Shown: positions 10,480 to 21,040 of the stretch, in pieces
Layout of the letters: every line of letters starts with the position of its first letter
Position numbering within the stretch: position 1 is the stretch's first letter
Assembly: GCF_025979705.1 (NCBI RefSeq)
Contig: NZ_CP110136.1
Location: 1-64,000, forward strand
DNA length: 64,000 nt
From: Hymenobacter sp. YIM 151858-1
GTDB lineage: Bacteria > Bacteroidota > Bacteroidia > Cytophagales > Hymenobacteraceae
Direction of reading: 5' to 3'
Translations under genes and position numbers: made by a program
Notes under the pieces: model-generated
Database searches by the model: none
Told to the model about the DNA's origin: nothing
What the model saw: the letters and a program-made list of their open reading frames with translations, nothing else

Positions 10480-10663
10480 GTCAGCCTGAGCAAAGGAAAA
10501 GAAGCCTATCACACAAGGCCGTCATGCTGAGCGCAGTCGAAGCATCTCTACGGATAGTAATCTACTATCTCACGAAGCGGTAGAGATGCTTCGACTGCGC
10601 TCAGCATGACGTTCTGAATAACTGCCTGAATAGAAGATGACTCTTCGCTTTGCTCAGGCTGAC
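10480..10663. repeat. Nested inverted-repeat element between dxr and rseP
   Basis: Two inverted repeats sit one inside the other. The outer arms are 16 bp (10480-10495 and 10648-10663). The inner arms are perfect over 31 bp (10521-10551 and 10580-10610), separated by 28 bases. The inner arm starts GTCATGCTGAGCGCAGTCGA, a type of interspersed repeat I recognise from many Bacteroidota intergenic regions. Short open frames across it are by-products of the repeat. RNA from either strand would fold into a long hairpin, so it may affect dxr-rseP readthrough. Confidence 0.85.
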
Positions 10664-12115: not shown

Positions 12116-12610
12116 ATGCGTCGTTTTGTTGCTTTCCTAGGTGCCTTGCTGATGGCTATTGCGGCGTGGGCCCACCCGTACCATGCCAGCATCATGGAGG
12201 CGAAGCTCAACCCCAAAACTCAACAGCTCGAAATAGCCCTGAAGGTGTTTACCGACGACCTGGAAACCGGCCTGTCGCAGGGCGCGGCGCGCCCCGTGCG
12301 CCTGCTCGAAACACCTGCCGCCCAACTTACGCCCGTTATCAGCAACTACCTGCGGCGCAGCATTACGGTGGGCACCAAGCCCGGCGAAGCCCTGCCGCTG
12401 AACTACCTAGGGATGGAGCGCGAGAAAGATGCGCACTGGATTTATTTCAGCGTGAAGCTGAACAAGCGTACCCAAAGCATTAACCTCAGCCACCGCCTGC
12501 TGATGGAGCAGTTCTCCGATCAGATGAACATCGTGAACCTCGAGGCCAACGGCAAAAAGCAAAGCGCGCTGTTCCGCAGCGGCAACGACACGCAGCGCAT
12601 TAGCTGGTAG
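12116..12610 (+). CDS. DUF6702-like exported protein
   Basis: 164-residue protein with a signal peptide (MRRFVAFLGALLMAIAAWAHP) followed directly by the characteristic HPYHASIMEAKLN, and a beta-rich C-terminal part. I recognise the overall pattern as the DUF6702 family of Bacteroidota, exported proteins of unknown role. No catalytic motif is evident. It is a single-gene unit after the rseP terminator, and the repeat-bounded GIY-YIG gene starts about 90 bases later. It has two CCTAGG sites, both as Leu-Gly codons. Confidence 0.75.
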   Translation: MRRFVAFLGALLMAIAAWAHPYHASIMEAKLNPKTQQLEIALKVFTDDLETGLSQGAARPVRLLETPAAQLTPVISNYLRRSITVGTKPGEALPLNYLGMEREKDAHWIYFSVKLNKRTQSINLSHRLLMEQFSDQMNIVNLEANGKKQSALFRSGNDTQRISW

Positions 12611-12624
12611 CAACCGTTCCCTTA

Positions 12625-13069
12625 GCTGTCATTGCGAGCAAAGCGAAGCAATCAGTCCTGAGCAGGGCACATCCGTTCAGCCAGCAGCAACCGTAAACCG
12701 GGTATGCGCGACCACCGCTACTTCGTCTACATCCTCACCAACCAGAACCATACTGTTCTGTATGTCGGCGTTACCAACGACCTAGGGCGTCGGCTAGTGG
12801 AGCATCGCTCCGGCGCACACAAGGGTTTTACAAAGCGCTACAACGCAACGAAGCTCATCTATTTCGAAGAGCACACGAATATCAACGCGGCTATTGCGCG
12901 CGAGAAACAGTTCAAGGGCGGTTCGCGGCAGAAGAAACTCGACGCCGTAGCCAGCCTAAACCCAAACTGGGAAGAATTGCTATCCTAGGTGGTTTTCGCT
13001 TAGCGCTAGGTGAAGGGTCGTACCCAGCCCAGGACCGATTGCTTCGTCGTGCCTCCTCGCAATGACAGC
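12625..13069. mobile_element. Inverted-repeat element enclosing a GIY-YIG gene
   Basis: A unit of about 445 bp. The left arm (12625 to about 12690) begins GCTGTCATTGCGAG; the right arm (12993-13069) is its reverse complement with scattered mismatches and a short insertion near the end. The only gene, a GIY-YIG nuclease gene, fills the space between: its ATG is about 14 bases after the left arm and its stop is 4 bases before the right arm. The same arms occur at 19060-19481 without a gene. Whether the unit moves, and whether the nuclease is responsible, is inference from this arrangement. Confidence 0.65.
12704..12988 (+). CDS. GIY-YIG nuclease family protein (small YhbQ/UPF0213 type)
   Basis: 94-residue single-domain GIY-YIG endonuclease homologue. 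The two signature strands are VYI (8-10) and YVG (20-22). The catalytic Tyr9 and Tyr20, Arg29/30 in LGRRLVEH and Glu67 in IAREKQFKG are all present, so it should be catalytically competent. The family tail LNPNWEELLS is intact. No extra DNA-binding domain is attached. GC is about 50% in the line sampled, lower than the flanking genes. It sits exactly between long inverted repeats, unlike ordinary chromosomal yhbQ genes, and small GIY-YIG genes of this type are often present in several copies in Bacteroidota. One CCTAGG site lies in the frame and another overlaps its stop codon region. Confidence 0.88.
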   Translation: MRDHRYFVYILTNQNHTVLYVGVTNDLGRRLVEHRSGAHKGFTKRYNATKLIYFEEHTNINAAIAREKQFKGGSRQKKLDAVASLNPNWEELLS

Positions 13070-13072
13070 CGG

Positions 13073-13131
13073 TTACACAAAAGGCGCGGGCCGGGAGCTG
13101 ATACAGCTCCCGGCCCGCGCCTTTTGTGTAA
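13073..13131 (-). terminator. Long hairpin terminator of the PorE-like gene
   Basis: Perfect 28-bp arms (13073-13100 and 13104-13131) with a 3-base loop. The flank CTTTTGTGTAA reads as T-rich on either strand. It lies 14 bases beyond the minus-strand gene's stop and abuts the repeat element. Confidence 0.88.
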
Positions 13132-13145
13132 GGTACCTTGGGTTG

Positions 13146-15146
13146 CTAGTTCCAGCCGCCGGCATCCTTATCGGCGGGTTTTTGCTCCGATTCGGGCTTG
13201 ATCAGGCGGAACTCCACGCGGCGGTTGATGCGCATGTCCTCTTCGGTGGCTTCCTCCTTCAGCGGCACGGTGCTGCCGTAGCCGCGGCTCTCGATGCGGT
13301 TAGGCTTGAGCTTGCCTTTGGTTTCGATGTAGCGGCGAATGGCGTCGGCGCGGTCTTGCGAAAGCTGCTCGTTCACGTCGGGGTCGCCTTTGGCGTCGGT
13401 GTGGCCCGAAATGCGCAAGCGGTGGTCGGGGTGGTCGACCATGAACACCACGATGCGGTCGAGGGTGGCGTGCATCGAGGGCAGGATGTTTGATTTGCCC
13501 TGGTCGAACTCGATGTTACGGAAGATCAGCGGGATGTTGTAGTCGATGCTGGTAGTCATCAGCTTCATCACCGTGTCCTGCTTCAGGCTGAATTGCTTTT
13601 CGACGGTAAAGTACTCCGGGCTCTGAATGAGCATCACGTACTTCGAACCGTCGATGAGGTCGAAATCGAAAGAGCCATCGGGGCGGATGTACTTCGAGGC
13701 CACCTCAATGCCGTTGTCCACGTCGATGATGCTAACGATGCCGCTCAGGGGCTTTTGCGTTACCGAGTCGACCAAAGTACCCTCGAAGCGCGTGGTGGCC
13801 AGCGGCTGAGCCTCCATGGGCAGCGGGAAGGAGTACAGGTCGAGGTTCTTCATGTTCTTCTCCTCGGAGCGGGCGTAATACAGGTTTTTCGATTCGCCGT
13901 CGATGGTGAAGTAATACTCCGAGCCCTTGCCGTTCACGAGCGGGCCAATGTTGATGGGCTCCTGCCAGCGGCCTTTGGTGCGGTAGGCTTTGTAAATGTC
14001 GAAGTCGCCGAAGTTCAGCAGCTGCCCGCGCGACGAGAAGTACAGCACGTTGTAGAGCGGGTGGTAGAAGGGGCTTACCTCGCTTTCGCGCGTGTTGATG
14101 ATGGGCCCCATGTTCTGGGCCTTGGCCCACTGCCCGTTCTTCAGCTTGTAGGTAAACCAGATGTCGGACATGCCGAAGCCGCCCAGGCGGTCGGAGGCGA
14201 AGTACAAGGTGTCCTCGGTGCGCGAGAGGGTAGGCTGCGAGTCCCAGGCCGTGGAGTTCACCTGCATACCCAGGCTTTGAGGCACCGTCCACTGGCCGTT
14301 TTTGTAGTGGCTCACGAACAAGTCGCAGTTGCCGTGGCAGGTGGGGCACTCGCAGCGCGAGAAGTACATGGTGGTGCCGTCCTTGGTAAGGCAGGCTGAG
14401 CCCTCGTTGTAGGGCGAGCTGATGGGCTTGGGCAAGGCCTCGGCATCCGACCACGACTCGCCCTGGCGCTTGGCCATGTACAGCTCCTCGTCCACGATGT
14501 TGTGCAGGCCGCGCGTTTTGCGCTTCGAGGAGAAAATGAGTTGCTCCGAGTCGTCGTGGTAGCTGGGGCCGTAGTCCTCTACCTGCGAGTTGATGCCCGC
14601 GCCCATGTTGGTGTACACGCCCTTGGGCGGCCGGAAGGTGGCAATGTTCTTCCGGTACTCCACAATGTCGTAGTACGTTTTCAGGGGCACGTACAAGTCG
14701 GCGTCCTTCCGTTCGAGCGAGTCGTAGTACAGCTGAATTTTCCGAACGTCCTGCCGGTGGTGCTTGAGGGCCAGGCGGTAGTAGGCCTTGGCTTTGTCCT
14801 CGTTGCCGGCGCGCTCAAACAGCTGCCCCAGCCGCCAGAGCATCATGTTGTCCTTGCTGAAGTTCTCGATGCCGAAGTTGGCCACGTACTGCTCCAGCAG
14901 GTTGCGGGCCGAGGTCCAGCTTTTGCGCTTTTCGGCGCGGGCGATTTCGCGCAGCGCTTTTTTGTCCTGGAAATAAGCAACGCGGTTGATGTTGATAAAG
15001 TCCGGGGTAGCATCGGGCCGCACCCGGAGCTGGCGAACTTTGCCCGAAAGGGCACGCTGGCGGTACGGCTTATTTTGCGCTGCGAGCACACTCGCAAAGC
15101 ACAAACCCACCAGCAGCAGAAAAAGCGGGCGTATCAAACGAAACAT
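13146..15146 (-). CDS. PorE-like OmpA/TPR/beta-propeller envelope protein (T9SS)
   Basis: 666-residue exported protein. Domains in order: signal peptide (about 1-24, ending ASVLAAQ); TPR-like helices (about 45-130); PD40/TolB-type beta-propeller repeats (about 190-440) with a Cys cluster CECPTCHGNC; a carboxypeptidase-regulatory-like beta domain (about 455-530, FEGTLVDSVTQKPLSG); and an OmpA C-terminal peptidoglycan-binding domain (about 540-650, with ISGHTDAKGDPDVNEQLSQ). This TPR-propeller-CRD-OmpA order is that described for PorE of the type IX secretion system, which ties the machinery to peptidoglycan. Related OmpA proteins without a T9SS role exist, so PorE is an inference from architecture. 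The start at 15146 is chosen for the signal peptide. It is divergent from lon. Confidence 0.85.
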   Translation of the reverse strand: MFRLIRPLFLLLVGLCFASVLAAQNKPYRQRALSGKVRQLRVRPDATPDFININRVAYFQDKKALREIARAEKRKSWTSARNLLEQYVANFGIENFSKDNMMLWRLGQLFERAGNEDKAKAYYRLALKHHRQDVRKIQLYYDSLERKDADLYVPLKTYYDIVEYRKNIATFRPPKGVYTNMGAGINSQVEDYGPSYHDDSEQLIFSSKRKTRGLHNIVDEELYMAKRQGESWSDAEALPKPISSPYNEGSACLTKDGTTMYFSRCECPTCHGNCDLFVSHYKNGQWTVPQSLGMQVNSTAWDSQPTLSRTEDTLYFASDRLGGFGMSDIWFTYKLKNGQWAKAQNMGPIINTRESEVSPFYHPLYNVLYFSSRGQLLNFGDFDIYKAYRTKGRWQEPINIGPLVNGKGSEYYFTIDGESKNLYYARSEEKNMKNLDLYSFPLPMEAQPLATTRFEGTLVDSVTQKPLSGIVSIIDVDNGIEVASKYIRPDGSFDFDLIDGSKYVMLIQSPEYFTVEKQFSLKQDTVMKLMTTSIDYNIPLIFRNIEFDQGKSNILPSMHATLDRIVVFMVDHPDHRLRISGHTDAKGDPDVNEQLSQDRADAIRRYIETKGKLKPNRIESRGYGSTVPLKEEATEEDMRINRRVEFRLIKPESEQKPADKDAGGWN

Positions 15147-15387
15147 AGGAAGGTAGTCGGCACGGAAGCCCAACGTGGAGCGGGAGCTACGGCCTTCAAA
15201 AATATAGCTTTTAGCTGATGACGCAGCGCCCGGCTGACGCCTTGTCGGGCGGAAATTGCTGCCATGGCGGCCGCTTGTGCCCTAGGTGCACGTGGCACGG
15301 CACTTGACAAAGAGGTATCTTCGTTTCGTGGACGGCGGCGCGGCGGCTTTTTGCTGCCAATCTGGCGCTGCTGTCGTTTCCTTCTCT

Positions 15388-17895
15388 ATGTCGAAAAATT
15401 CGAATCCGCGCTTTCCAGCTTCCTTCCTGCTCATGACCGAAGACCCTGACGGAATGGTGTCGGTAGTTTCGTCCGACTCGGAGCAGGAACCCGCGGCGCA
15501 AGGCGAAGCGCCGGAAAAACTGCCCATTTTGCCGGTGCGCAACACGGTGCTGTTTCCGGGGGTGGTGCTGCCCGTTACGGTTACGCGCAAAAAAAGCATT
15601 CGGCTGGTGCGCAAGGCCTACAAGGGCGATAAGCTGATTGGGGTAATTGCCCAGAAGAACTCCAACGCCGAAGACCCCGTGCTGGCCGACCTCTACGAGG
15701 TGGGTACCATGGCGCGTATTCTGAAGCTATTGGAACTGCCCGATGGCAACACCACCATCATCATTCAGGGCCAGCAGCGTTTCCGGTTGGCCGAAATGGT
15801 GCAAACCACGCCCTACTTCACGGCGCAGGTAGACTACCTGCCCGAGCTGCTGCCCACCCGCCAAACTAAAGAAGTAAAAGCCTTGATGGCCTCGCTGAAA
15901 GATGCGGCCACCAAGATGCTGAAGCTGAACCCCGAAATTCCGCAGGAGGCTCAGGTTGCCCTCGACAACATTGAGTCGCCGGGCTTTCTGATTCACTTCC
16001 TGTCCTCCAACCTCAACGTAGAAGTAGGGCAGAAGCAGCGTCTGCTCGAGATAAACGAGGCCGTAGAGCGCGGTACGCAACTGCTCGAGCTGTTGCTGAA
16101 GGAAATTCAGCTGCTCGAGATTAAGCACGAAATCCAGAGCAAGGTCCACACCGACATCGACCAGCAGCAGCGCGACTATTTCCTGCGCCAGCAGCTGAAG
16201 GTGCTGCAAGACGAGCTCGGCCACGAAGGCCCCGACCAGGAACTGGACAAGCTGCGTCAGCGCGCCAAGGACAAAAAGTGGCCCGAAGGGGTGGCCAAGC
16301 ACTTCCAGAAAGAGCTGGACAAGCTGAGCCGCATGAACCCGGCCGCCGCCGAATACCCGGTGAGCCTGAACTACGTGGAGTTTCTGCTCGATTTGCCCTG
16401 GGCCGAGTACACCAAGGACAACTTCAACCTGAAGCGCACCCGCAAAATCCTCGATCAGGACCACTACGGCCTGGAGAAAGTGAAGGAGCGCATCCTGGAG
16501 TACCTGGCGGTGCTTAAGCTGAAACAGGATCTGCGGGCACCCATCCTGTGTTTGTACGGGCCTCCCGGCGTGGGCAAAACTTCCCTAGGTCGCTCCATTG
16601 CTACGGCCCTGGGGCGGAAGTACGTGCGCCTTTCCCTAGGTGGCGTGCGCGACGAAGCCGAAATCCGCGGGCACCGCAAAACCTACGTGGGGGCTATGCC
16701 GGGCCGCATCGTGTCGCAAATCAAGAAAGCCGGCGCCTCCAACCCGGTGATGATTCTGGACGAGGTGGATAAGCTTTCCTCGGACTTCCGCGGCGACCCG
16801 CAGGCGGCTTTGCTCGAAGTGCTGGACCCGGAGCAGAACTCGACCTTCACCGACAACTACCTGGAGGTGGAGTACGACTTGTCGCGCGTGCTCTTTATTG
16901 CTACGGCCAACTCGCTCGACACCATTCACCCGGCCCTGCGCGACCGGATGGAAATTATCGACCTGACGGGCTACACGCTGGAAGAGAAAACCCAGATTGC
17001 CAAAAAGCACCTCTGGCCCAAGCAGGTAACCGAGCACGGCCTTACCCAAAAGGATGTAACCATCAGCACCGCCGCCGTGCAGCGCGTGATTGATGATTAC
17101 ACCCGCGAATCGGGCGTGCGCAGCCTCGAGCGTAAGCTGGGGGCTTTGGCTCGCAACATCGCCAAGCACAAGGCCATGGATGAAGCCTTCCCGGCCAAGC
17201 TGGAGCCCGATGATGTAAGCAAAATCCTAGGTGCCGCCATCTTCGACCGCGACCTGTACCAGGACAACGAAACCGCCGGCGTGGTAACCGGCCTGGCCTG
17301 GACTTCGGTGGGTGGCGACATTCTGTTCGTGGAAAGCCTGTTGAGCCGTGGCCGTGGCAAACTCACGTTGTCGGGCCAGTTGGGCGACGTGATGAAGGAA
17401 TCGGCCGTGACGGCGCTGAGCTACCTGCGCAGCCGCGCCGAGGAACTGGGCATCGATTACCGCCTGTTCGATCAGTACGACCTGCACATTCACTTCCCCG
17501 AGGGCGCCGTGCCTAAAGATGGCCCCTCGGCGGGTATTGCCATTTTCACCAGCATTGCTTCGGTGTACACGCAGCGCAAAATTCGCTCGCACTTGGCCAT
17601 GACGGGCGAAATAACCCTGCGCGGTAAGGTGCTGCCGGTGGGCGGCATCAAGGAGAAGCTGCTGGCGGCCAAGCGCGCCGGTATTCGCGACGTGATTTTG
17701 TGCGAGAAGAACCGCAAGGACCTTCAGGACATCCCAGCCGAGTACCTCAAGGGCGTTACCGTGCACTATGTCGACCGCGTGGACGACGTGGTGCGCGTGG
17801 CCCTGCTCGACGAGTTGGTGAAAAACCCGCTGAAGCTGACCGTACGCGACGAAACCGCCGCACCCGCCCCGCTGCACGAGGTGGAAGTACAGTAG
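15388..17895 (+). CDS. lon: ATP-dependent Lon protease
   Basis: Cytoplasmic AAA+ serine protease that degrades misfolded and regulatory proteins. With the start at 15388 (MSKNSNPRF) it has 835 residues: an N-terminal substrate-binding domain ([19 protein letters not shown] at the front), an AAA+ module with Walker A GPPGVGKT at 391-398 and Walker B ILDEVDKL, and a protease domain with catalytic Ser714 in [10 protein letters not shown] and Lys757 in [11 protein letters not shown]. An upstream open frame to 15286 is not needed by the family. Two CCTAGG sites fall within 60 bases of each other near the Walker A codons. A TATCTTCG element upstream (15315-15322) could be a -7 box. It is divergent from the PorE-like gene. 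Confidence 0.97.
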
Positions 17896-17902
17896 CGAGC
17901 CG

Positions 17903-17965
17903 TTAGCTGCTGGCTGTTAGCTATTAGTTTTCGACCTAGGCTAATAGCTAACAGCCAGCAGCTAA
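17903..17965. repeat. Perfect 25-bp inverted repeat between lon and porQ
   Basis: Arms 17903-17927 and 17941-17965 are exact reverse complements around a 13-base loop that ends in CCTAGG. The arms are themselves made of repeated TAGCTGTTAGC-like blocks. There is no T run, so a plain terminator is less likely than a REP-like element, but it starts only 8 bases after the lon stop. Confidence 0.8.
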
Positions 17966-17986
17966 TAGCTGATTATCTTCGCTACG

Positions 17987-19045
17987 ATGATTCGACCCGT
18001 ACGCCGTTTCCTAGGTGCTTTGTTGGTGTTGCCCGCTTTGCTGCTGGCTGGCGAGGCGTACGCACAGATAGGCGGGCAGCGGGCTTTTGCTTCCCTGGGT
18101 CTGCCACCTACGGCTTACCTGGCCGGGGTAGGAGGGGTGAGCGTATCGGGCCGCAACAACGACCCCGGCATGCTCTACGGCAACCCGGCCCTGCTTAACA
18201 GCGACATGGACGGCCGCCTGGCCCTAAGCTACGGCGACTACCTGGCCGATATCCGGCAGAGCACGGCTGCCTACGTGCGCAACACCGAGCGGCTGGGGCG
18301 CTGGGGCTTCGGGTTGTCGTACCTGAGCTACGGCGACTTCGAGATGTACGACCCGGCCGGCGCGCCCCTAGGTCAGTTTTCCGTCAACGATTACCACCTC
18401 AGCCTGACCAACGCCCACACCTTCGGCAACTTTACCATGGGCGCTACGGCGCGCCTGGCGGTAGCCGGCATTGCGGGCAACCACTCAGTGGCGGTGCTTA
18501 CCGATGTAGGCAGTGTATTCAAGCACCCCAAGCAGGACTTTACCGTTGGCTTGGCCGTGAAGAACCTAGGCTACCAGCTGAAACCCTTTGAGGGCAGCAG
18601 CCGCGAGCCGATGCCGTTTGATGTGCAGCTGGGCGCCAGCATCAAGCCCGAGCACATGCCCGTGCGCTTTACCATCACGGCGCACCACCTGTACCAGCTC
18701 GACATCGTGTACCTCGATACGCTGCAGCAGCGCCGCCAAAGCCTCGATGGTCAGCAGAAAACGCCTAAAAAGAGCTTGGGCGACCAAATTGCGCGGCACT
18801 TTGTGGTAGGCGGCGAGCTGATTTTGGGCAAAGGCCTGAACGTGCGCGTGGGCTACAATCACCTGCGCCGCCGCGAGCTGCGCCTCGATAACGTTTCGGG
18901 CGGGGCCGGCTTTTCGTTCGGTGCCATGCTCAAGCTTGGGGCGTATCAGTTCGAGTACACGCGGGCGCTCTACCACGTATCGGGCGGCACCAACTACCTC
19001 ACGTTGTCGCGCAACGTGCACGAGCTGTTCGGCAAAAAGGAGTAG
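17987..19045 (+). CDS. porQ: Type IX secretion system protein PorQ
   Basis: 352-residue exported outer-membrane-type protein of the PorQ family. Signal peptide about 1-27 (ending GEAYAQ). The N-terminal family signature is GGQRAFASLGLPPTAYLAGVG, then NNDPGMLYGNPALL, and the rest is a beta-barrel pattern as in PorV/FadL-like proteins. PorQ is a T9SS accessory outer-membrane protein; its exact role is less clear than that of PorV. A TATCTTCG sequence (17974-17981), close to the -7 consensus, lies just upstream of the ATG. The region between its stop and hslU is occupied by the nested repeat element. Confidence 0.9.
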   Translation: MIRPVRRFLGALLVLPALLLAGEAYAQIGGQRAFASLGLPPTAYLAGVGGVSVSGRNNDPGMLYGNPALLNSDMDGRLALSYGDYLADIRQSTAAYVRNTERLGRWGFGLSYLSYGDFEMYDPAGAPLGQFSVNDYHLSLTNAHTFGNFTMGATARLAVAGIAGNHSVAVLTDVGSVFKHPKQDFTVGLAVKNLGYQLKPFEGSSREPMPFDVQLGASIKPEHMPVRFTITAHHLYQLDIVYLDTLQQRRQSLDGQQKTPKKSLGDQIARHFVVGGELILGKGLNVRVGYNHLRRRELRLDNVSGGAGFSFGAMLKLGAYQFEYTRALYHVSGGTNYLTLSRNVHELFGKKE

Positions 19046-19059
19046 CCGCCGTTGCGCCC

Positions 19060-19481
19060 GCTGTCATTGCGAGCCAAGCGAAGCAATCGGTCCCGGGCAG
19101 GGCACAACCCTTCAGCCAGCACTAAGCGAAACCGACCTAGGGCGGGGCCGAACGATGTAGCGCGGACTTTGGCTACGCCGACCTTCGGTTGTAGTCCGCG
19201 TCCCCGGATAGTAATGTCTGACCTAGGGATGCAGCGCGTGTAGCGCGGGCTTTAGCTCGCGTTGGCCAGCACGAAATCAATAGGGCGAAACCGCGCGAAA
19301 CCGTCGTTCACGCAAACGCGGGCTAAAGCCCGCGCTACCTGCAACGATTGATTTTACTATCTGTGGACGCGGACTTGCAGAGTCCGCGCTACAGCAGGCA
19401 ACCTTTTTCGCTTAGTGCTAGCTGAACGGTTGTGCCCCGCTCAGGACCGATTGCCTCGTCGTGCCTCCTCGCAATGACAGC
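19060..19481. mobile_element. Gene-less nested inverted-repeat element
   Basis: 422 bp with the same terminal arms as the GIY-YIG element (left 19060 to about 19132, right about 19407-19481). Inside is a second pair, 19156-19214 and 19354-19393, sharing TGTAGCGCGGAC and GGATAGTAA-like ends. Inside that is a third pair, 19240-19262 and 19316-19338, 23 bp with one mismatch; each of these arms is itself a small GC-rich palindrome. No credible gene is present. The structure suggests successive insertion of repeats into repeats, or a decayed element that lost its gene. Short frames across it are repeat translations. Confidence 0.75.
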
Positions 19482-19621
19482 TAGCGGAACGGTGCTACTT
19501 GCCTGCATCTGCCAGAACGGCACGCCTGGGTTTTCGTCACAGTTTTTGCAGCCTGGGCAACCCTTACCACATTGCTCAGTATCTAATCAGCTGGCGGCGC
19601 CATAAGCGCAGCCCCTTGCTC

Positions 19622-21040
19622 ATGCTCGATTCTGCGACCTTCCTTACGCCGGCTCAAATTGTAGCCGAACTCGATAAATACATAGTTGGCCAGCACGAGG
19701 CCAAGCGCAACGTAGCCATTGCCCTGCGCAACCGCTGGCGCCGCCTGCACGCGCCGCAGGAGATGCAGCGCGAAATCGTGCCCAACAACATCCTGATGAT
19801 TGGCTCGACGGGCGTCGGCAAAACCGAAATTGCCCGCCGCCTGGCGGCCATTGCCGATGCGCCCTTTACCAAAGTTGAGGCCTCCAAATTCACGGAAGTA
19901 GGCTACGTGGGCCGCGACGTGGAAAGCATGGTGCGCGACCTGGCCGAACAGGCGGTGCATTTGGTAAAGCAGCGCCGCAAAGAGGCCGTGAAAACCCAGG
20001 CCGCGCAAGCCGTTGAGGATACCATTCTCGATGCGCTGATTCCGCCCATCCAGGGCACGGGTACCTCGGTGGTGAACAAGCCGGGCGTGGGCTTTGGCAA
20101 CATGGGCTCCGACGATATGCCGCAGACCGATATCGAGCTGAACGAGCGCACCCGCGAGCGTTTCCGCGAGAAGCTGCGCCGCGGCGAGCTGGAAGACCGC
20201 CGCATCGAAATTAAAGTGCAGCAGAGCAGCGGCCCCGGCATTGGCGTGCTGGGCGGGCAAGCCGGCCTCGACGAAGCCTCGCTGCAAGGCCTGCAGGACA
20301 TGCTCGGCTCGATGGTGCCCAAGAAAACGCGCAAGCGCAAGGTTACCATTGCCGAGGCGCGCAAACTGCTGCTCGACGAAGAAGCGGCCAAGCTCATCGA
20401 TATGGATGAGGTGAAGGACGAGGCCATTCGCATCACCGAAAACGCCGGCATTATCTTCATCGACGAAATCGACAAAGTAGCCAGCAGCAGCGGCAGCCAG
20501 AAAGGCGGGCCCGATGTAAGCCGCGAGGGCGTGCAGCGCGATTTGCTGCCCATCGTGGAGGGCTCGGCCGTGAGCACCAAGTACGGCGTGGTGAACACCG
20601 ACCACATCCTGTTCATTGCCGCCGGGGCGTTCCACGTCAGCAAGCCCTCCGACCTGATTCCGGAGCTGCAGGGGCGTTTCCCCATTCGCGTGGAGCTGCA
20701 AAGCCTTACCAAGGAAGACTTCTTCCGCATCCTGAAAGACCCCAAAAACGCCCTCACCAAGCAGTACGAAGCCCTGCTGAAGGCCGAAGACGTGGAGCTT
20801 ACCTTCGACGACTCGGCTCTGGAGCGCTTAGCCGAAATTGCGTTTGAGGTGAACAGCGAGGTAGAGAACATCGGCGCCCGCCGCCTGCACACCGTGATGA
20901 GCCGCCTGCTCAACGATATTCTGTTCGACGTGCCCGACCGCATCGGCGCCAACGCTCACATCCTCATCAACCGGGCTTTGGTAGATGAGCGCCTGCAGAA
21001 CATGGTGAAAAACCGCGACCTGAGCCAGTACATTCTGTAA
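19622..21040 (+). CDS. hslU: HslU, ATPase subunit of the HslVU protease
   Basis: AAA+ unfoldase that feeds substrates into the HslV peptidase. Start at 19622 (MLDSATFLTPAQIVAELDKY), giving 472 residues; the open frame upstream runs into the repeat element and lacks similarity. Walker A GSTGVGKT is at 61-68 and Walker B is GIIFIDEIDKVA. The middle intermediate domain is longer and charged (about 150-230), as usual in HslU. The sensor region GRFPIRVEL and the C-terminal YIL end, which inserts into HslV, are intact. hslV is not adjacent and not elsewhere in the window, although the two often form an operon. Terminator directly after. Confidence 0.96.
   Translation: MLDSATFLTPAQIVAELDKYIVGQHEAKRNVAIALRNRWRRLHAPQEMQREIVPNNILMIGSTGVGKTEIARRLAAIADAPFTKVEASKFTEVGYVGRDVESMVRDLAEQAVHLVKQRRKEAVKTQAAQAVEDTILDALIPPIQGTGTSVVNKPGVGFGNMGSDDMPQTDIELNERTRERFREKLRRGELEDRRIEIKVQQSSGPGIGVLGGQAGLDEASLQGLQDMLGSMVPKKTRKRKVTIAEARKLLLDEEAAKLIDMDEVKDEAIRITENAGIIFIDEIDKVASSSGSQKGGPDVSREGVQRDLLPIVEGSAVSTKYGVVNTDHILFIAAGAFHVSKPSDLIPELQGRFPIRVELQSLTKEDFFRILKDPKNALTKQYEALLKAEDVELTFDDSALERLAEIAFEVNSEVENIGARRLHTVMSRLLNDILFDVPDRIGANAHILINRALVDERLQNMVKNRDLSQYIL

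Follow-up and report, generated by a model that had tools for sequence, protein, structure and literature searches.

The small GIY-YIG nuclease gene described here is probably one kind of cargo carried between inverted GTC-tagged repeats, which would most likely be its own recognition sites, and the contents of such repeat pairs appear to be exchanged as cassettes. The gene is located in the opening 64,000 nucleotides of the main contig of the Hymenobacter sp. YIM 151858-1 genome (4.62 Mb); this whole stretch of 64 kb is referred to as the window. Comparison of sequences revealed the framing of the gene, gene-less copies of the repeats, a coupling of gene and repeats across phyla, and differences in content at kept sites near gene ends that are consistent with exchange, loss and inversion. 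We infer that the nuclease drives the exchange.

Results

The nuclease gene and its protein

The 94-codon frame matched PF01541 in a profile search (62 bits, cut-off 22.6). Residues Y9, Y20, G22, R30, H34, E67 and N86 were all present and are invariant or nearly so among 62 relatives; those that we take to be catalytic are among them, in agreement with the original prediction, which was made from the sequence alone. The GC content of the gene (53.7%) is, as had also been noticed, below that of its flanking genes (58.8 and 59.5%), with 59.4% for the window. The left neighbour is a DUF6702 gene (12116-12610), the stop codon of which lies 14 nt from the start of the left arm, and the right neighbour is an OmpA/PD40 gene on the minus strand (13146-15173).

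Comparison with the orthologue in a congener (G004) gave a dN/dS of 0.054, against 0.046 for a neighbour gene, pointing to purifying selection on the nuclease gene. Its dS was about twice that of the neighbour (1.12 versus 0.59, for 12704-12988), as might result if the gene had been exchanged with a more distantly related copy.

The AlphaFold2 model of the 94-aa protein had a pLDDT of 91, and its structure matches were led by UPF0213 (1zg2, E 5.5e-5), followed by Slx1 entries and UvrC GIY-YIG domains, so that the predicted fold resembles that of these proteins. Slx1 and UvrC depend on partners and act on branched or damaged DNA; unlike them, the small gene in the window stands alone between its arms. 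No NCBIfam model matched the protein above its cut-off, TIGR01453 reaching 21.9 bits against a cut-off of 56, and Rfam gave no intron family at E 0.1 in 12500-20000. A GIY-YIG homing endonuclease was rejected on these two results together with the presence of a catalytic domain only and the intergenic position. Three sub-threshold Rfam microRNA matches to a hairpin at about 17901-17967, obtained in the same 12500-20000 scan, were taken as chance. No promoter-like sites were found in 12500-13200.

Homologues were found in 11 phage records (best identity 38.7%) and in 34 plasmid records, all below 60% identity, 33 of them predicted to be non-mobilizable and one conjugative. One of the "plasmid" records is a chromosome-sized sequence of 2.17 Mb from Neisseria gonorrhoeae.

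Arms and GTC-tagged units at the window locus

The coordinates of the gene, its arms and related elements are given in Table 1.

Table 1. Features of the nuclease locus and of related repeat elements (positions in the window)
Feature	Position	Strand	Evidence
Short inverted pair of GTC-tagged units, ATGCT stem type, no gene between	10521..10610		unit scan
Left arm, begins GCTGTCATTGCGAG, outward-facing, stops just short of gene	12625..12703	+	inverted match to right arm
GTC-tagged unit in left arm (GTC + ATTGC...GCAAT)	12628..12652	+	GTC-plus-stem scan
GIY-YIG nuclease gene, 94 aa	12704..12988	+	PF01541; dN/dS; AlphaFold2 model
Right arm, inverted, outward-facing	12989..13069	-	inverted match to left arm
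GTC-tagged unit in right arm, other loop segment	13038..13066	-	GTC-plus-stem scan
28-bp perfect palindrome adjoining right arm	13073..13131		arms 13073-13100 and 13104-13131
Gene-less element, same arms, nested palindromes inside	19060..19481		exact GCTGTCATTGCGAG matches

The inverted repeat has an ungapped core of 56 nt with 75% identity. When gaps were allowed, the arms extended over ~80 nt (about 12623-12699 and 12994-13071) with a score of 24, compared with a maximum of 17 in 479 same-size windows taken elsewhere in 80 related loci, and a maximum of 22 in 237 cross-locus pairs, which have the repeat in common. The tight framing of the gene by long inverted repeats was therefore borne out. 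Of the predicted spacing, the ~4 bases on the right held and the ~14 bases on the left did not, the gap between arm and gene being about 4-5 nt on each side.

One pair of exact copies of GCTGTCATTGCGAG marks the arms of the gene (12625-12638 on the plus and 13056-13069 on the minus strand), and a second pair lies 6 kb away (19060-19073, plus, and 19468-19481, minus) with no GIY-YIG gene inside, confirming that the same arms recur without the gene. Five matches with at most two mismatches were found in the window, a number reached by none of 100 shuffles.

The two arms at the gene are not identical, as their loop segments differ. Each consists of a GTC followed by a short, weak stem-loop, and the tag reads TGTC at both arms. 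The stem starts with AT and has five contiguous pairs, with a loop of 15-19 nt between the stem halves. Folding of the units as single-stranded DNA was no better than that of shuffles (z -0.17 for the left unit, 12625-12655, and z -0.30 for the right).

The 28-bp palindrome next to the right arm is probably a terminator of the neighbouring genes; it was not listed by the terminator scan. A similar hairpin is present at the element-free site of another congener, described below.

The repeat family in the genome

The 12-mer TGTCATTGCGAG has 38 copies genome-wide, 19 on each strand, while the reversed control pattern has none. Thirty-five copies form 17 convergent pairs, one of which has a doubled left arm, and the other three have no exact partner. 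A GIY-YIG gene lies inside two of the 17 pairs, namely that of the window and that at 1667985-1668428, where the aligned GIY-YIG stretch contains a TAG; the interiors of the remaining pairs are nested palindromes. A search allowing one mismatch retrieved the related families GTCATTCCGAG and GTCATTTCGAG.

Among the 19 elements examined for their context, 10 lie between convergent reading frames, 9 between frames in the same direction and none between divergent ones, and in 18 an arm lies 14-22 nt from the end of a reading frame. In six of the 19, the interior has a GC-rich hairpin (CCGCACCGCCC...) and then a T-rich stretch. The 235-bp interior of the element at 19062 matches that of the element at 491245, which has the opposite orientation, with 97.9% identity, whereas it is 78% identical to its own orthologue in G004. 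A second palindromic repeat (GTAGCGCGGACT...AGTCCGCGCTAC) occurs inside many elements of both genomes, for example at 19150-19440 in the window, and a relative of it is present at a site in G004 without arms.

PF01541 was found at eight places in the genome, corresponding to five small and three long genes. All five small genes are framed by inverted arms, which belong to three stem types: GTCATTGCGAG twice, GTCATGTCGAG twice, and GTCATCCTGAG once, where the score was just 16.5. For the three long genes, five flanks of 350 bp outside the open frames could be read, the sixth running off its locus, and none of the five contained a unit. Across the genus, bracketing arms scoring at least 16 were found at 16 of 22 GIY-YIG places and were lacking at the other six.

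The most uniform arms seen, of 95 nt with a full-match score of 95, surround a GIY-YIG gene at locus L148 (G007, C33:93267) and look as if they had recently been made alike. At locus L258 (G107, C10:5500-7000), outward GTC-tagged units stand in tandem beside a GIY-YIG gene, two to its left and three to its right.

Coupling of gene and units across phyla

A scan of genome contigs retrieved at least 506 relatives of the gene, and the best 80 of them were surveyed. These loci come from 17 named phyla, with six loci without a phylum, and many are from metagenome bins, the labels of which can be wrong. A unit was defined as GTC followed by ATNNN and its partner, with at least 4 of the 5 bases matching.

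At 42 of the best 80 relatives the gene was bracketed by an inverted repeat with a score of at least 16; the same was true of 1 of the 479 same-size windows and of 6 of the 237 cross-locus pairs. Outward units on both sides were present at 46/80, against 5/612 control windows, and one stem shared by both sides at 31/80, against 0/612. At least one unit in any orientation was detected at 73 of the 80 (133 of the 612 controls). The both-sided cases among the best 80 are spread over 14 of the 17 named phyla. When the 5-nt stem was left free, GTC was the top of the 64 trinucleotides, with 50 of the best 80 relatives, followed by TCA with 19. Together with the framing of all five small genes in this genome, this coupling indicates that a nuclease and not a transposase is the gene associated with the repeats, as had been proposed.

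An open frame of N. gonorrhoeae matches the window protein with 43.5% identity over 90%, and it has GTC-tagged ATTCCC...GGGAAT repeats (GTCATTCCCGC...GCGGGAAT) on both sides, which is the pattern of dRS3.

Stem types, protein relatedness and repeat abundance

On a tree of 99 proteins, 90 of them with a stem label, the label required 34 changes compared with 58 after shuffling (0/200 shuffles as low), and the ATTGC type required 6 compared with 24 (0/500 as low). The ATTCT, ATTTC and ATCTC types showed no clustering even on this full tree. The correspondence between protein tree and stem type was lost after dereplication at 60% identity (23 rows, 20 labelled), where 12 changes against 13.5 were not significant (65/500 as low), so that kinship can explain much of the clustering.

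Among 120 genomes of the family, at least five copies of the 12-mer were present in all 16 genomes with a relative of the gene of at least 99 bits and in 16 of the 104 others, and restricted to the two genera in which almost all copies occur, the counts were 16/16 and 16/35; the 99-bit limit was chosen after seeing the list and the counts are uncorrected for kinship. Two of these 16 genomes carry broken gene copies (G005 and G032). In three genomes (G069, G073 and G111) the search for relatives of the gene gave no match at E 1e-6, yet 25, 82 and 63 copies of the 12-mer are present, and G028 has 144 copies yet no close relative of the gene (a single match at 7e-17). The 15 elements read in G028 (L243-L257) are 153-198 nt long, most have a central hairpin, and two inner-arm types recur among them.

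Variation between species

Twenty sites of this genome (17 pairs and 3 partial) were compared with G004, in which 18 were located. Paired arms were present in both genomes at 13 of these 18. Elsewhere, G004 retained only the outer ends at 393382, a left arm and a truncated gene at 1667985, and no arms at 711525 and 1974864, while 579593 had the left arm only in both genomes.

At the 13 paired sites the flanks were 0.89 identical, and the arms appear hardly more alike at orthologous than at unrelated sites (0.70 versus 0.67, p 0.08). Loop segments, in classes defined by this analysis, agreed in 8 of 26 orthologous and 82 of 312 non-orthologous arms. Gene-less interiors were 0.46 identical between orthologous and 0.44 between non-orthologous sites (9 pairs, p 0.28). 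The outer 14 nt of the arms, which bear on re-insertion versus inner exchange, gave 0.65 for orthologous sites against 0.61 (p 0.097) and favoured neither.

The window site was followed through eight genomes. The gene is intact in this genome and in G004 (88% identity). In G005 it lies inverted between the arms and is disrupted, lacking stretches of 1, 18 and 2 bases, and G006 has a left arm and a hairpin and no gene. In G002 and G007 the site is occupied by inverted units of ATCCC and ATCCT type that enclose a hairpin (by eye). Counted together, other GTC-tagged units take the place of the gene in three genomes. G001 has both neighbours and a hairpin and no arms, constituting an element-free site, whereas G003 has no arms and a different downstream neighbour. 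At the 1667985 site, G005 has both arms and no gene. The site has thus been retained, or used again, for a long time, its content changes and can flip, and it is occupied by various unit families.

The original prediction had suggested an autonomous unit, and movement of such a unit to new sites is not supported. One element-free orthologous site was seen, in G001, where divergence is too great for the junction to be placed or for gain and loss to be told apart. Target duplication was not seen beyond chance: abutting direct repeats of at least 5 nt were present at one of the 16 elements of this genome and at one of the 15 of G028, with shuffled means of 0.7 and 0.2, respectively. Some transposons make no target-site duplication. 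As no target duplication was found and no junction could be defined, there is no support for transposition to fresh targets. The prediction would have been undermined by small GIY-YIG genes lacking arms or by a locus invariant among relatives; instead, all five small genes are framed, the coupling recurs and site content varies between congeners.

Discussion

The findings that argue for exchangeable cassettes bounded by the recognition sites of the nuclease are the five framed genes, the units across phyla, the clustering on the protein tree, the link between gene and repeats among genomes, purifying selection, the changed contents of sites and the dRS3 repeats in Neisseria. Those that argue against it are the loss of the tree signal on dereplication, the three stem types that do not cluster, the lack of a kinship correction in the link among genomes, the copies in genomes without a detected or a close relative of the gene, the poor folding of the units and the six of 22 loci in the genus without bracketing arms. 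As a mechanism, the nuclease would cut its repeats in single-stranded form, either on the lagging strand or in imported DNA, with the cut placed at or close to the tag or stem. The cut arms would then recombine with arms elsewhere, and through this recombination the segments between arms, the nuclease gene included, would be swapped or flipped with no transposase taking part. Ordinary recombination between repeats could also produce such exchanges without the nuclease.

A Neisseria enzyme named Ssn, reportedly described in 2025, is said to cut single strands site-specifically at a genome-wide repeat (NTS) and to have thousands of homologues, and the 43.5% homologue of N. gonorrhoeae may be the published ssn. 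The window gene resembles this pair in combining a small GIY-YIG nuclease with a genome-wide repeat family, single-strand cutting being a feature of Ssn. The kind of enzyme in the window is therefore probably the Ssn family and already known. We know of no claim of exchangeable or inverting cassettes for Ssn/NTS. A literature search on GIY-YIG genes and REPs gave no linking paper among its top-ranked matches, phrase matching being possibly imperfect; as the search covers those matches and the Ssn paper lies outside them, we do not present the link as unpublished. The present analysis contributes two things: with controls for comparison, it links these nucleases to the whole class of GTC-tagged repeats, and it shows that sites which are kept vary and can invert in content.

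A neighbouring explanation is that the nuclease controls uptake or recombination. It would cut single-stranded DNA entering the cell wherever the repeats occur, which would set the ends of imported segments, as is reported for Ssn/NTS, and the arms of the gene would be two of many sites. Import could leave changed contents at kept sites, and the gonococcal homologue has dRS3-pattern repeats on both sides (pattern as in PMC3898611). This account overlaps with the cassette explanation and, taken alone, gives no reason for the frequent position of the gene between two outward units; we consider it possible but rather unlikely.

It is unlikely that the repeats are simply a landscape of terminators or RNA-stabilising hairpins, with arms and interiors shuffled by homologous recombination or gene conversion and a nuclease that has another substrate. 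The closeness of arms to gene ends in 18/19 elements, with 0/19 between divergent frames, would suit such a role, as would the 6/19 interiors with a GC-rich hairpin and T-rich sequence and the persistence of copies in genomes without the gene. Such a role would leave unexplained that, relative to local controls, GTC-tagged units accompany this single gene family across 17 phyla, that three stem types frame all five small GIY-YIG genes, and that the five readable flanks of the three long genes contain no units. A classical transposon with the gene-bearing copy as autonomous element, the nuclease as transposase and MITE-like derivatives is very improbable, because the terminal inverted repeats, the many gene-less copies (144 of the 12-mer in G028, with 15 short elements read) and the element-free site in G001 are set against target duplications at chance level, paired arms in both species at 13 of the 18 located sites and the lack of a close relative of the gene in G028, and, to our knowledge, GIY-YIG enzymes do not act as transposases.

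RAYTs are HUH tyrosine transposases with a fold unrelated to GIY-YIG, and membership of the window family in the RAYT/REP system was ruled out by its GIY-YIG protein and by its tag, TGTC and not GTAG. The likeness is one of layout: with RAYT, GTAG REPs and REPINs, too, tagged hairpins stand on both sides of an enzyme gene and numerous inverted pairs lack the gene (RAYT and GTAG REPs in sections of the 2013 survey of REPs, Di Nocera and others 2013, PMC3733652). The predicted "REPtron-like" arrangement fits in its layout, while movement or maintenance of the repeats by the nuclease is unproven. Under the cassette explanation, GIY-YIG enzymes would be to CGTC-type repeats what RAYTs are thought to be to GTAG REPs, by a different chemistry.

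The same sections of that survey define CGTC REPs by a CGTC, often TGTC, tag and stems starting with AT, mostly as inverted dimers, and include dRS3 as CGTC-1; they describe them as widespread and mostly downstream of genes, and as seemingly without a dedicated transposase, GIY-YIG proteins being unmentioned there, and suggest that the "REPtrons" of CGTC repeats disappeared early (PMC3733652). The window units share the TGTC tag, the AT stem start, the inverted-dimer layout and the position downstream of genes, and differ in their 5-bp stem and long loops, the survey giving stems of 8-9 bp and loops of 4-5 nt (PMC3733652). As the 8-9 bp stem is absent and folding was no better than in shuffles, we name them CGTC-REP-like and not members of the class.

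According to PMC3898611, dRS3 and the neisserial intergenic mosaic elements consist of GTC-flanked short inverted repeats bounding strain-variable mosaic DNA, for which exchange was suggested. The window family is alike in having GTC-flanked short inverted repeats around variable intergenic DNA, whereas the neisserial mosaics form larger arrays, with ~700 copies, and their recombination is credited there to a phage integrase (PMC3898611).

GTC-tagged palindromic repeats are widespread, and a gene family found beside or between them in most of its best 80 relatives is a direct candidate for their enzyme, one that yields testable predictions as to which stem each enzyme should cut. This suggests that such nucleases are the missing partner of a widespread orphan class of repeats. 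Tentatively, and with less confidence than in the cassette explanation itself, we propose that CGTC-type REPs do have an enzyme of their own, namely small GIY-YIG nucleases matched to their stems, and that the two form "CGTC REPtrons" in at least 14 phyla, which would spread by single-strand cutting of arms and by swapping the DNA between arms at existing sites, free of any transposase, with the nuclease gene itself as an exchangeable, invertible cassette. If true, this would supply many repeat-specific nucleases, and would provide a transposase-free route for swapping or flipping DNA near gene ends between sites.
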